From: Tubulanus polymorphus
Taxonomy: Eukaryota; Nemertea; Palaeonemertea; Tubulaniformes; Tubulanidae
DNA length: 64,000 nt
Assembly (NCBI RefSeq): GCF_964204645.1
Contig: NC_134031.1
Coordinates: 2,339,001 to 2,403,000 of the forward strand
Direction of reading: 5' to 3'
Below are positions 10,101-17,185 of this stretch, piece after piece. Position 1 is the first letter of the stretch. Each line of letters begins with the position of its first letter. The notes below the pieces were generated by a model that made no database searches, was not told where the DNA came from, and saw only the letters and a program-made list of their open reading frames with translations. The position numbers and the translations under genes are program-made.

Positions 10101-10379
10101 CAACGCAACTCATCGCGTGTCGTGCTAACATCCGTCGTCGTCTATATTCCGTGTCCCGACGAATCGACAGCTATCACCAATCAGGACTTTTGATCGTCGG
10201 GAATGAATTCGATTTCCGTGGCCGTTATCTTGATTACAGGCTGCAGCGCATCTTACTCGATCCTATACGAGCAGAGAGAGAGGGGGAACGAGCCCGTGCT
10301 CGAAATTGCACGACGCTCCATTAGGCACCGAGAACGTAGGATCGGTCTCTCCATCGCGGTCATTCCAAATTGGGGCTCG
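7112..10379. other. Non-coding stretch left of the transposon
   Basis: About 8000-8700 is T-rich on the plus strand, with several overlapping short open frames there that are low-complexity artefacts. A pair of overlapping opposite-strand frames at 9197-9523 has no domain. No repeat array, RNA gene or exon is supported. Confidence 0.45.
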
Positions 10380-10515
10380 CCGCGCTGAGCGCTGCCGCGA
10401 GATGGCGCGCGCGTGTTAGTGGCCCTAGTGATTTGAATTTGAATTGTAAACAACATTTTATTCATCTCCGCGTTCGAGCGAATTGACGATTTGAAAAGCG
10501 CTTGAATCTATTATA

Positions 10516-12218
10516 ATGCCTCGCTATTGTTGTGTACCCCTTTGTAAGTCAAGAGTAGGCGGATTTAAGTTCCCTACGAACACAGATTTGAAAATGAAAT
10601 GGCTTGTTGCGATAAAACGACTACAGAGTAGCGAGAAATCTGCAAAATTATGGCAGCCATCGGATACAGCTATCGTATGCCATCGACATTTTTTACCAAC
10701 GGACTATAAACAGACACTTACCGGTAAATATGGCTTTCCTATTGAGTTTTCCAACTAAGGTGAAATAAGCGGTCAAGATCCAAGGCAGGCTGATTCGTTT
10801 AGGCCTCAGCTTGGGCCTATCGATATTATGCAATGTCGATGTTTTGAACTTTTTTTAAAAAGCCAGGCGCTTATTTTCATATCATCATAGTAGTTTGTTG
10901 ATAACAGGATAATGATATAACTCAATTATGATAATAACAACAATAGGCCTAATAATTTATGTGGTAGATTTATCTTTTTAATTTAAAGGTTGTTGACTTG
11001 ACTGGCAGCTGTTGATCTTTGAGTAGAAATATGTTTTTTTCTTTATGTGTTTCAGGTTCTAGAAGAAAATTAAAAGAGAATGCCATTCCGCGTATATTTG
11101 CCTTCACACCACCAGTTTCCTCAGATTCAGAGAGAGAAAGTAGAGCCAGTCGGCGAAGATTAAAACTGGAGGAAGAACCTGTACACCATGACATAGCCAC
11201 TGAAGTTGAAATAGGCCTACAACATACCAGCAATTACAGAATGGACATAATAGAGGAACCAACCAATAAAAACACTAACTTGGATAAGAATATTCAGTGT
11301 TCCCTCCTTTCAGATCAATTTTTCTGTATCGAGAGATTTATGGTGGATCCTAGGTCGATCAAATATTACACCAGTTTTAAAGACTATGAACATTTGATGA
11401 TGTTTTTCAGTGTACTAGGACCTGCTGCGTACGATTTGAATTACAAATGTCAGAAACTAACACCGGTCAATCAATTTTTCTTGACATTAATCAAATTAAG
11501 GCGTGCCAAGGAAGATATAGAACTGAGTATTCTGTTCGGCATATCAGAGAGTGTAGTTTCTAGGATTGTGTTAACCTGGGTAAACTTCATGTATTTCCAA
11601 TTAAGTGAAATCAATACATGGCCAGAGAGAGAAGAGATAGACTGTTTCATGCCCAGTGGCTTTAAGCATCATTTTCCGTCAACCAGAGTTATTTTAGATG
11701 CTACAGAGATTCCAATTGAAAAGCCGTCGAATGTAAAATCTCAAACTGCAACTTTCAGCACATACAAACATAAGAACACGCTTAAAACTATGGTTGGAAT
11801 ATCACCGAGAGGGGTCGTTAGTTATGTAAGTGAAAGTTATGCGGGTTCAACAAGTGACCGACAAATCATTGAACGATCCCAGCTGTGTTCAAACACCTCA
11901 AAATACTTCAGCTCGAATGACAGCATCATGGCCGATAGAGGTATAATGGTACAAGATCTTTTTGCTACCAAGAACATTAAGGTGAACACCCCAACTTTAT
12001 TGAAGGGCAAGAGTCAACTTGAACCTGAACAAGTAGTTCATGATCGTAGAGTAGCCAGTAAACGCATCCAAGTAGAAAGAGTAATCGGATTGTCAAAAAC
12101 TTTTCTTATTTTGAAAAAAGACCTGCCGCTTAGTAAAGTCAATATGGGTTCTAGGATAGTTTATGTTTGTTTCAGTATAAGCAATTTCAGACCAGCTATT
12201 GTGAACGAATTTGCTTAA
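10516..12218 (+). CDS. THAP-domain DDE transposase (two exons)
   Basis: Cuts and joins the element's own DNA in the nucleus. Exon 1 is 10516-10723 (donor G|GTAAAT) and exon 2 is 11056-12218 (acceptor TTTCAG|GT). Both splice in phase 1, giving 456 residues. Residues 1 to about 82 form a THAP zinc finger for binding the transposon ends: CCVPLC, the aromatic/basic core, VCHRHF, and the closing IPRIF motif supplied by exon 2. That motif is strong support for the splice. Residues about 205-247 match a transposase helix-turn-helix (LTPVNQFFLTLIKLR to SESVVSRIVLTW). The catalytic core follows, with Asp284 (LDATEIPI), Asp363 (MADRGI) and Glu410 (QVERVIGLSK), as in the DDE_Tnp_4 family. The start is the first ATG before the THAP cysteines. 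There are no stops or frameshifts, so it is probably functional. Confidence 0.92.
10724..11055 (+). other. Intron of the transposase gene
   Basis: Begins GTAAAT and ends TTTCAG after a T-rich tract. Removing it joins the THAP zinc-binding part to the IPRIF motif in frame. If it is retained, translation ends 35 bases into the intron at TAA, after a bare 80-residue THAP peptide. Such a peptide could bind DNA without cutting it. Confidence 0.8.
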
Positions 12219-13011
12219 CCTTATTGTTAATGTCTGTTAATTGATATCTAAAGTATATATTTTTGAGTTTTGTTTTGAGATTCATCGAAACCCCTGCTTT
12301 AAAGAAACATCATTGTTTCTCTTAATAGATTATTTAGGTAAATCCCAAATTCTTAGATATCAATTATGGGCCTGGACTGTAATTAATTGTCTGTCGTTGA
12401 TATTCAAAATCTGTGCGCAATATAACCTATTTCACTTTGACTTAATCCACTCTTTTGCAGTGTTTTCAATTCAAAGGACAAACTAATTTTCATTCCAGTA
12501 ACAAACCCTTTTATTGATTTAAAACTGGTAAAAACCAAAAATACAACAACGCTACATAAAATCTTTTTAAAATGCATGATAACACAGATATTTTATGTAA
12601 AATGGAAGAGTTTGAGTTTTGGGACTAAAGCATTCATGCCATAGTCAGGCGCAGCACATAATGAAATAATAAATAATCATGGTAATGAAATATGGTCAGA
12701 AAAGGAGTAAATCATTAATTTTCAAACTTTTGACCCACCATCGTCAGTAATTATGCATATAACTACACAACCTGACAAGTATATCTGTTTGAAATAACTA
12801 TATATGATAAAAAATATTGATAATAGATGATAAAAAATATTAAAACTTAAAAGTATCAACAAATAGTAAGCCGATATTGACATGAAATCTATATCATACA
12901 ATTGGGATGTACATGTATTTACAAATTTAGTTGTATGAAGATATTAATGCCAAAAACTATGGAATCTTCGGAAAATATCCGATCTATATCTCCAGGAATA
13001 ATCTAGATGTT
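12219..13011. other. AT-rich region between the convergent transposon genes
   Basis: Holds the 3' ends of both genes. It is very AT-rich, with short direct repetition of GATAAAAAATATT near 12805-12842. No further frame with protein features is present, and no single poly(A) signal stands out. Confidence 0.5.
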
Positions 13012-14859
13012 TTAGAACGCATGCATTGTTAAATACTTTGAATAGTACTTCCTATAAAAGATTTCTAATTTTGGAAGCAGAGATAGTTCACAGTGTTTTT
13101 GATCATGATAAACCCTCTCTACATAAAGGTCCTTATGAGTATAAACAACGAAATAGCACATTTTCCGTTTGCAAATATGCAACTGTCCTTGAATCTGATC
13201 ATAGTAATTATGCGAACGTTTCAGCTTCTTATCTTTTGCACTAAGAAACTTGAAGTATGGCCCCGGAGCAATAAGTTCATTTCTACCGCGATACGGACAT
13301 TTCACTTCAACAATGGCATCCTCAGACACAAGGCCATCTGGGCTCGCGCCTAGATAATCTATATCTGGCCTCACATGAAGTCCGCAAGGCTGTACTTTAA
13401 CGGAGAATTTACCTTCAAAAGCCGCTATCGCCTTACTTTCGAATGTCTTTCCATGGCAAACAGCAGCATTTCTCAACGGAATATTATCGTGAAGAGATTT
13501 ACACAATTTGTCGATATTGCGCCTTTTCGTGAGCGAAACAATTTCACCGAAACGAGATGCAGTTAATCGTAGCTGCCTTTCCTGAAACCATTGACTAGAT
13601 TCTGCCTGCTTCCTAGTACTCCTTTCTAGTAATATTGCCTGTGTTTCATTTAACTGAAAAGGCAAAATGGAATATTAATTATAAGCACAGAGGGAAGGAT
13701 AACATAGGTCACTCTCAGACACGTTGATTAAAAACTTACCTTAATAGAGTTTTCCACCCAATATTCAAGCAAAGTTTTTTTCAGATAATCATGGTCAATT
13801 GCTGCTGTTTTGATATCGGCTTTCTTGTACTTATACTTGATGGGTAGGTCTAAAGACGATACAGAGCAGTAATTAAGGACAATTCCCCGGACATAATCCT
13901 CGTATCCAGCTGATTTCCGGTATTTCACAGGCCTTGGATCCTCCATTGATACCTCGCGTTTCTTTGATTTTGATAGAGGTAAGTCACCAGCCTTGACAGG
14001 GGAACCTGTTAAGAAGTGACGGGTAAATTTAAACAAGGTCACAGCCGAGCTAAAAATTGAAAACCAAGTACATTATGTAAAACATTGCCATTACATCAGA
14101 ATTTATAAAAAATAAGATATATAGGGTACGAATTTGCTGAATGGTGGCGATGTAACCAAACAACTTACCAGTATAAACAGACTTGGGCTTATGGAATGTT
14201 TGTAGATTTTCCGTACACGATTTAAGTATTTCGGGAGCGTTAGGCCCATCTGATGACACAAAATTAGCAAACATCAAAAGTACAGCCGCGACATGCTTAC
14301 AGGTCCCATTAGGACCCTTACCGGCAGGGCACTCACAATGGCTGTTTCTGAATTCACCAGTTGTTTGAGACAATGATATCTGGTACGAGTATGAGATCTG
14401 CAATGAAATATAAAAATAAACTAATCAACAATGTTTGCTACATTACAACCTTTTAAGAATACAGTTGTATTGCAGATTTATGTGGATTTAAAGGAGGGAA
14501 TATTGTGTTATTTTGATGAAATATAAAACTGGCCTACCTTTTTTTTCATAGCAGCACCAACTAATCCAGTCAGATAAACAATTCCGCTTTTGATGAGAAT
14601 ACTGCAGGCTTGAACACGTTGCGATTCTATGAGCTGCTGACCCTTCTCAATAGCTTTAATGTCTTTGGTACAGTGGTTGTCCATTGCCATTCTATACGTG
14701 AAATATGCAGTTACTGTGTCAATATTGAATTTTGGCAATACAATCTTATGATCATTTGTAAGCTGTTTGAAACCGCATGTGGGCCATTCCGGAACTGTTT
14801 CTTGTGGTAATGTTATGGCCGGTCCCCTAAAATCGTTGTTACGGCCGTATGCTTCTAAT
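13012..14859 (-). CDS. SWIM zinc finger + YqaJ-type nuclease, second transposon protein (four exons, 5' end open)
   Basis: Exons are 14859-14538, 14397-14169, 14005-13740 and 13653-13012. All junctions are GT-AG (GTAGGC, GTAAGT, GTAAGT; TTGCAG, AACAG, TTTCAG) and in phase, giving at least 485 residues counted from the Leu codon at 14858. Residues 128-142 are a SWIM zinc finger, CxC-x9-CxH (CECPAGKGPNGTCKH), in the second exon. The last exon is a YqaJ / lambda-exonuclease-like PD-(D/E)xK nuclease with Glu344 (GKTFES), Asp378 (GASPDG), Glu388 and Lys390 (VEVKCP), and the YYDQIQGQLHI motif. The role in transposition is unknown; processing of DNA ends is an inference. The first exon begins with the last base of a codon, so an upstream exon is missing. 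One phase-compatible candidate ends at about 15075 (TTG AG|GTGACG) and gives a 39-residue hydrophobic leader, but the donor is weak. Confidence 0.88.
13741..14005 (-). other. Linker exon of the nuclease gene
   Basis: Between the SWIM finger and the nuclease domain. It encodes GSPVKAGDLPLSKSKKREV, a Lys-rich stretch that could be a nuclear localisation signal, then SAGYEDYVRG and a predicted helical region ending NSIK before the splice into the nuclease exon. The SPVKAGDLP segment appears to be a conserved feature of this protein type, as I recall it. Confidence 0.6.
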
Positions 14860-15059
14860 CTGCAATGAACACGAAATAATCATGAAATATAAACATCTAA
14901 TGTCAAAAATCATTCAATCAACTAACAGAAAGTTGACCCAGAGTTGAAATGTTACATCGAAATGATTACTCCAAGCATGGACGTCTATACGTCCATGGTC
15001 ATACAGATTTGTATTTAACTCAACTGTGTTGTGGTAAGAAGGTATATAAGTAAGGTATT

Positions 15060-15497
15060 CAGTTTACCGTCACCTCAAGTTGATCAGGGTTCTGACTATA
15101 ATTCCAATAACATATAAAAATTCAATAGAGACTAGACACAGCAGCAGACATGTCCAATGATTTATGGATACATTGGCAGTAAAATTTGGCATCAGCTTCA
15201 ATTCATGTTCGATAGATGGCGCCAGTGGTAACTCAGCTGTTGCGATGGTTAGCTGACAAGGCGTCCTACATCCCGATAATAATCCCTACATTTCAAGATA
15301 TAAACATTGCCATCTAAACTTCTCAAGGCAATCATAATATCAAATAGTGATTTAAAAAACGTTTTATCGATGACTTTTATGTGCATTATGTTTATTTTCC
15401 GGACATGAAAACCGAAAAATAATGAAAGATATCGCGGGACGGGACGCGTGGGACCGGCCATAGCCATCCTCGCAGCCCGGGCTGGTGACGGTAAACT
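15060..15497. repeat. 14-base inverted pair around the right end of the transposon
   Basis: AGTTTACCGTCACC near 15060-15073 is repeated as its exact reverse complement, GGTGACGGTAAACT, near 15484-15497. The match extends poorly on both sides. It may mark a small nested inverted-repeat element at the transposon's right edge, or one arm may belong to the transposon end. Confidence 0.35.
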
Positions 15498-17185
15498 TGT
15501 ACTATACCCTGACCCACAACCCACTGAGGTTTAGCTTTCATCTCTGGATCTATTAAAACACGTTCATTTCACTTGAGCATAGGTCTAGAATCATCGATGA
15601 TTTTGGCAAAAAATCACTGTTGATTCCATGATCATTGCAACATTTTTGCGCAGACTAAACGACTGAACACCATCAACCGCATGGAAATATGATCGACATT
15701 TAAATTACCTTTCAATTAGGTTGATTTTCCTCCCATAGGTTACCGCACCTCGTCGGCTTAACTCTTGTTTCAGCTTCGGTACAGTCCATGACCCGTAATT
15801 CTCTGACATTATTACAATTTAAAAGTAGGAAATCGAGCGCGGAAGTGAGCGGAAGTCGATACGCGATGGCTACTAACGCACACACGCCACCTGGTGTCCA
15901 TAGCGACGGCGAGCCCCATTTCGCAGTATCACATGAGGACAGTTGCACGTCAGAGACAATGCCGCCACTCCCGCTTTGTGTGTGTGTATAAAACATATAA
16001 GGCCCAGGTGGACAAAAAAACAATGATTGCATTCATACGTGCAAACCATTCGGTATTTCACGGAATTCGTTGGTAGTAGATCGTACTGATGAGCCAAACA
16101 AGGCCAAAGTGCGTATCACACTTCGAGATGGAGTGGTCTTTTGACGTGATAATCCGCGTCGAGTTTGCCAGTAGCCTGACGCCAGGGACGGACGTGTCTC
16201 GACGCAATTACCAACAGTAAATTACCCATTTACAAACATATTCCTTCGACTCGAACTTCTGGGAGAAAGAAAACAATCTAGTTACGCAAATGAGCAAACA
16301 GCTGTGGCCGGGGCTTCCGATGGTGGTAATGTTGTTTTACGGACAAAAAGCTAACACGGGCCAATGAAGATCTAAGCCCGAGCAAACACAATTTAATTTT
16401 CATCTCGTCACGTTTGGTAATTCGGCAAGAAAGATGCGCACGTTCTTGTCAATATATAACAGTAACCAATATATACAGTGGACAATACGACGGAATTAAC
16501 TGAAGTAGATATATCCACTAATACTAACAAAGGAGCAACACTCATTTTTCACGTCGACGACAAAGTCTCGCTTGACGCTGTAACAAAACTTATTTATCTG
16601 CAGCACCGGGGAAAAAAACGTCGTACCGGGAAATCGGTTAACCTTGCGGACAATACCGAGAAAAGCACAATGAATCTGGCGTCGTCCCCGCGAGGGCGAA
16701 GAAAAACTACAGCCGTCGCAATTCTCGAAATATACCCCGGAGGAAAGGACCGTCGACGATTGTCATCGTTTGGGTCTATCTTCCCCCGAAGCTCGGACTA
16801 GTAAATCTACACGATATACGATAAAAGAATTACGAAGCAAAAAACGAAATTTTTTGCACCTCCTGCAGAAGACGGTGTAGCAAAGGTGATATTTACTTTA
16901 TTCGCGTCATTTCGATTTGTTTGACATTCAAGACAGTTATCGCCTGAGGTCAAGCAATAATCGAGTGGAATGTTTTTGATGTCTCGCATATCGAACAGAT
17001 TCCACGTCATCGCTGTGGCACCCACTAACATCGAATTAAACGGCGTCTTGAGTTGCGAAACGATTAAGCCAGGGTCAAACGGGCCCGAACTAGACCCGTG
17101 TCAGATTTGGCTCGCATGCTTAATAAGGAGAGCGCGTTCATACGTAAATCACTCACTCGTTACTAAAATGCTATAAAGACGATAC
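15241..17185. other. Non-coding stretch right of the transposon
   Basis: Several mid-length frames overlap on opposite strands. One (16478-16801) begins at GTG rather than ATG and encodes a basic polypeptide with no domain. I support no gene here. Confidence 0.4.

Follow-up and report, generated by a model that had tools for sequence, protein, structure and literature searches.

A two-gene ISL2EU-type transposon with a predicted YqaJ nuclease and near-identical copies in the genome of Tubulanus polymorphus

Results

Gene content of the locus

The DNA analyzed here, a stretch of 64,000 nucleotides from Tubulanus polymorphus (hereafter, the window), carries a transposon in which a transposase and a nuclease are encoded by separate, convergent genes. 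The features are as follows.

10369..10371, no strand: left target duplication of the window copy, ATT (3 bp)
10372..15917, no strand: complete element assigned to ISL2EU, 5,546 bp, delimited by flank comparison among copies
10372..10441, plus strand: left terminal region, 11-bp perfect tip GGGGCTCGCCG and subterminal GATGGCGCGCGCGTGTTAGTGGCC motif
10516..10723, plus strand: transposase exon 1, THAP domain
11056..12218, plus strand: transposase exon 2, HTH_Tnp_4 and DDE_Tnp_4, stop included
12942..13536, no strand: stretch absent from three derivative copies, 595 bp
13012..13653, minus strand: nuclease exon 5, YqaJ domain, stop included
13740..14005, minus strand: nuclease exon 4, its start the least certain junction (second open acceptor, first base 13909)
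14169..14397, minus strand: nuclease exon 3, SWIM-like CxC...CxH with a Pfam match below threshold
14538..14859, minus strand: nuclease exon 2, conserved in the relative L022
15052..15508, limits approximate, no strand: nested MITE-like repeat within nuclease intron 1, with inner inverted repeat AGTTTACCGTCACC...GGTGACGGTAAACT
15709..15809, minus strand: nuclease exon 1, SAP domain, outside the interval first proposed
15848..15917, minus strand: right terminal region, tip GGGGCTCGCCG inverted and subterminal GGTGGCGTGTGTGCGTTAGTAGCC motif
15918..15920, no strand: right target duplication of the window copy, ATT

Across the whole window (1-64000), just two closed stop-to-stop frames of at least 150 aa occur, both within the ISL2EU element.

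The transposase gene has one intron, and its predicted spliced frame is open over 456 aa, matching Pfam THAP at residues 5-84 (E = 4e-13), HTH_Tnp_4 at 202-253 (2e-12), and DDE_Tnp_4 at 283-446 (2e-39). All three DDE residues described from the sequence alone were recovered, in the stretches VILDATE, SIMADRG, and QVERVIG, which start at residues 281, 359, and 408 and which, by motif, we take to hold the three acidic residues. On the minus strand, the nuclease is predicted to comprise 519 aa in five exons separated by GT-AG introns, with SAP at residues 4-38 (2e-6) and YqaJ at 327-467 (7e-13); a SWIM match at 160-183 (E = 0.0039, 17.1 bits) lies under the Pfam cut-off of 19.6. Both genes can be spliced into full frames with canonical sites, as the sequence-only reading had held, and among the domains it had named (THAP, HTH_Tnp_4, DDE_Tnp_4, SWIM, and YqaJ) all but SWIM were matched above cut-off. 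Its count of five introns (one plus four) also agrees, although its first nuclease exon must differ. A first exon in the 15070-15285 frame was considered and dropped in favor of the one at 15709-15809, which yields the SAP domain, is in phase, and has a conserved counterpart in L022 and weaker matches in further relatives. For exon 4, the open acceptor at 13909 was not kept; 14005 was chosen because relatives such as L035 match model residues 215-307 in one piece.

Exon 5 alone matches solved exonucleases, the best being 3syy (1.2e-9), with lambda exonuclease 1avq at 2.9e-4, and from these matches the predicted fold of the nuclease is lambda-exonuclease-like. In a 12-row alignment of YqaJ exons, D106, E116, and K118 are present in 12/12 rows and E72 in 11/12 (D in L025). 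By analogy with lambda exonuclease we presume these residues to be catalytic, and their recovery bears out the E...D...ExK nuclease core noted earlier. No report of a SAP domain on an ISL2EU nuclease was found in the open-access literature searched, although one may still exist; the portion of PMC12730594 consulted makes no mention of YqaJ.

Within nuclease intron 1, the block at ~15113-15430 has many genome matches, several of them near YqaJ genes, which first raised the suspicion of a coding exon or internal promoter. Alignment then revealed the termini of a MITE-like repeat, and the block was classed as a nested repeat. Among the other repeat loci aligned, 17/18 match the block at 70-79%, and L062 matches in two pieces at 79 and 82%. 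The MITE-like repeat occupies the same place in L022.

Copies in the genome and target sites

With 10400-15240 as the query, a search of the genome that contains the window (268 Mb in 77 contigs) returned ten full-length, nearly identical matches, three further matches interrupted by an internal gap, and weaker hits. Matches between copies continued beyond 15240, and comparison of copies with their flanks showed that the element runs from 10372 to 15917 and has the tips GGGGCTCGCC and GGCGAGCCCC. The limits of 10400..15240 proposed from the sequence alone were wrong, the right end falling 677 bp short and leaving the first nuclease exon outside. The first 401 bp of the element have exactly 13 genome matches (13/13 candidates scored), while the last 678 bp match 13 places at 100% and 27 others at <=88% (40 scored of 56 candidates). 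Nine copies, including the one in the window, show zero differences over 5,546 bp. In copy L017/L072, the THAP exon has lost 3 bp in frame, and a single A-to-G change at window position 11764 replaces Tyr with Cys; the 70,310 bp of copies (9 x 5,546 + 5,543 + 3 x 4,951) hold one substitution and two deletion types in total.

Target duplications are AT in 10 copies, each with A before and T after, GT in one, ATT in the window copy, and AAT in L072; the 3-bp duplications could alternatively represent a 2-bp duplication accompanied by a minor alteration at the junction. The L004 insertion sits in a minisatellite with a unit of ~47 bp (around L004 1320-1472 and 7018-7180), where, in the part inspected, GACTCAATTCTATGAG is the sequence of two complete units on each side of the element, and one unit on the right differs. 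The filled unit is GACTCAAT - element - ATTCTATGAG; the neighboring units preserve the empty site and are therefore a direct control for the 2-bp AT duplication.

The extreme identity of the copies, in a single assembly examined without reads, might suggest an assembly artifact or gene conversion rather than recent jumps. This is very improbable, given 13 places with different flanks, each with its own target duplication, three copies sharing a private deletion, and one with private changes. Likewise, the MITE-like repeat nested in the first nuclease intron could hint at two neighboring or nested elements lying together by chance, and copies ending elsewhere, which the sequence-only reading had named beforehand as evidence against a single element, were looked for. 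In 13/13 copies the same two tips enclose both genes (the nuclease shortened in three), so both belong to one element, and the pairing recurs in relatives; for the two genes, a chance association is already refuted and merits virtually no credence. The 13 copies, their target duplications, and the domain matches uphold the earlier description of an apparently intact two-gene transposon, and the copies and duplications support the recent mobility that had been deduced from its intact state.

The sections of PMC4482050 on ISL2EU describe a transposase with THAP, HTH, and DDE domains, a YqaJ second ORF, AT duplications at A|AT|T, GG tips, and a mean length of ~4,840 bp. All five features were found here, in line with the ISL2EU link that the sequence-only reading had proposed: the three transposase domains (Pfam on the spliced protein), a second ORF with a YqaJ domain, AT duplications at A|AT|T in 10/13 copies (the exceptions being one GT and two of 3 bp), tips starting with GG (GGGGCTCGCC), as is usual in the group, and a length of 5,546 bp, a loose criterion because only a mean is given in that source. 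We therefore assign the element to a new family of the known ISL2EU group, membership being judged by these five features, and regard it as almost certainly an autonomous cut-and-paste transposon that was mobile very recently.

Nuclease-dead deletion derivatives

Copies L018/L073, L019, and L020 share the same 595-bp deletion with 2-bp microhomology, are otherwise identical, and retain the transposase; because the microhomology is GA, placement of the deletion is ambiguous by 2 bp. The exon 5 frame of L073 runs for ~40 native residues, then 3 others, then a stop, so that E72, D106, E116, and K118 are lost. Since the three insertions have separate target duplications, the deletion form moved at least twice after arising. 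Two derivatives lie 149 kb apart on one contig, the pattern that local hopping would give. The derivatives show that the nuclease need not be supplied in cis, from which dispensability does not follow; the spread of three nuclease-dead copies fits supply in trans and dispensability equally.

Relatives in the same genome

Pfam YqaJ gave 61 genome matches, ten of them full copies of the window element and 51 others. Thirty YqaJ loci were fetched with 1.5-kb flanks, 20 from the 51 non-copy matches, and an ISL2EU-type transposase match was present in the fetched flanks of 17/20 of the latter, with none at L025, L028, and L030. Transposase and nuclease lie tail-to-tail in 16/17 paired loci and both on one strand in L033. 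Transposase and nuclease distances correlate over 16 of the 19 elements with both proteins (r = 0.81, 116 comparisons; window element and L022 included; L031, L036, and L051 dropped for short matches), 0/9,999 permutations being as high (p = 0.0001, the floor of the test). When L022 and L048 were left out (14 elements, 87 comparisons), r was again 0.81 with the same p. In L022, L035, L027, L025, and L049, a SAP-like stretch precedes YqaJ on the same strand (E <=0.003), with weaker matches in L024 (0.058) and L048 (0.11). The remaining loci searched gave short chance-level hits or none, and Pfam SAP was not found in the frames tested of L037 and L034, which may lack the first exon.

At L028 (790-1788, minus strand), the YqaJ frame continues into unrelated protein sequence with a GDFES stretch, which we take to recall family-B DNA polymerase exonuclease motifs. 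Viral contigs, when scanned, yielded 79 loci of distant YqaJ relatives, with best segments at 24-36% identity.

Constraint and a possible mosaic history

L022 (1145-6150), an older, decayed ISL2EU relative on another contig, is flanked by an AT duplication of its own, and its left tip reads GGGGAGCACC. It matches nuclease exons 1, 2, 3, and 5 at 80-91% at the amino acid level; exon 4 is mostly missing, and part of the transposase is unmatched. Between the nucleases dN is 0.041 and dS 0.349, a ratio of 0.12 over 419 codons, with individual pieces ranging from 0.05 to 0.58, the highest value coming from one 41-codon piece; for the transposase, pN is 0.142 and pS 0.855 over 281 codons, with synonymous sites saturated. 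Similarity between the two elements is 90-94% for nuclease exons 2 and 5 and for intron 2, 88% for exon 1, and 84% for exon 3, against 60% for distal intron 1, 72% for the right end, 60% for the 3' flank of exon 5, and ~71-73% for the transposase. The simplest reading would be that the nuclease core was exchanged between related elements; this is drawn from one relic, and uneven constraint may contribute to the contrast. In L021, a broken relative, transposase exon 2 is 92% alike.

Horizontal transfer of the element was considered, and the finding that only 13 copies share its 5' end speaks for it. Against this, the existence of older relatives (L021, L022) and of a nested repeat that L022 has in common with the element suggests that the lineage has been resident for a long time.

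Discussion

Proposed roles of the transposase and nuclease

By analogy with the family, the THAP domain would bind the shared subterminal motifs, and the DDE domain would excise the element and join it to a 2-bp staggered target. The SAP-SWIM-YqaJ protein may be a lambda-exonuclease-like 5'-3' nuclease acting in trans at the donor break, where it would resect the donor ends and so direct gap repair toward copying of the element from the sister or homologous chromosome; such homologous copying would turn cut-and-paste into a net gain of copies. Resection of the donor break for homologous repair is the role we favor, as a tentative proposal. Internal deletions with microhomology are the kind left by interrupted gap repair, and the 595-bp deletion with its 2-bp microhomology, being of that kind, counts for the repair idea, as does the YqaJ core, which looks exchangeable between elements with diverged ends. 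The nuclease might also be a general resection module, supplied in trans, independent of the ends, and exchangeable between elements, on which the nuclease-dead derivatives ride, a reading that we consider rather doubtful.

SAP and SWIM are DNA- or chromatin-binding modules, and this, with the SAP-like stretches upstream of YqaJ in several relatives, would suit a DNA-binding or assembly partner resembling the Harbinger Myb-like protein, with nuclease activity secondary. Harbinger needs that protein, which aids nuclear import and binds the TIRs, according to the relevant part of PMC9179366. Such a partner role seems somewhat unlikely here: the presumed catalytic residues are kept across families, the ISL2EU transposase already has its own THAP domain, and the YqaJ core of L022 is far closer to that of the window element than are the ends and transposase, a contrast that argues against end-specific binding by the YqaJ core.

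Alternatively, the nuclease may act outside transposition chemistry, for example in host silencing or the clearing of extrachromosomal DNA, or be dispensable. Three copies without its catalytic part have spread, and native Spy transposases are active in assays (PMC11304231), while no YqaJ ORF is described for Spy in the relevant part of PMC4482050; because Spy is reported as the sister clade, ISL2EU-type chemistry need not require YqaJ. Set against these points are the constraint on YqaJ (dN/dS 0.12) and its persistent linkage to the transposase in relatives, and we judge a role elsewhere, or none, to be possible but not probable.

Comparison with known systems

ISL2EU is a group of the PHIS superfamily and a superfamily of its own in Repbase. 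The YqaJ gene is its published hallmark in the sections of PMC4482050 and PMC9179366 that treat the group, so the pairing of a transposase with such an enzyme, which the sequence-only reading had called mechanistically unusual, is normal for ISL2EU; the remark retains its force insofar as PMC4482050 describes what the additional ORFs do as unknown. The authors of PMC9179366, writing in 2022, knew of no report proving ISL2EU activity, although transcription was seen in fish.

KolobokE, like the window element, is a DNA transposon lineage with a lambda-exonuclease-like nuclease (PMC9587614, relevant part), but its nuclease lies downstream of the transposase domain, unlike the separate convergent genes here, and Kolobok makes 4-bp TTAA duplications, of which there were none among the 13 copies. 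PIF/Harbinger shares a related DDE transposase and a second ORF (PMC4482050, relevant part), whereas that ORF is Myb/SANT and the duplications are 3-bp TWA; neither protein of the window element had a Myb/SANT Pfam hit, and TWA was absent from the 13 duplications. The transposase clade of Spy is reported as sister to ISL2EU in the pertinent text of PMC11304231. Unlike the window element, Spy makes no target duplication, inserts at AAATTT, and has no YqaJ gene described; here, 13/13 copies are flanked by duplications of 2 or 3 bp. Lambda exonuclease 1avq and exonuclease 3syy match exon 5 and have the E/D/ExK residues in common with it, whereas the window nuclease is joined to SAP and a SWIM-like finger and resides in a transposon.

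With ISL2EU itself, the window element shares the transposase domains, YqaJ ORF, AT duplications, and GG tips; its family differs in having 3-bp duplications (2/13) and GT (1/13), a SAP domain on the nuclease, and near-identical copies. Less ordinary here are the freshness of the copies and the spread of nuclease-dead derivatives, along with the occurrence, in several relatives, of SAP-like stretches ahead of YqaJ and the signs of YqaJ core exchange between lineages. Having nine full-length copies without differences, naturally occurring nuclease-dead derivatives, and a clean empty site, the family makes ISL2EU activity and the function of the extra ORF directly testable, and the value of the element is as a test case for an unexplained nuclease.
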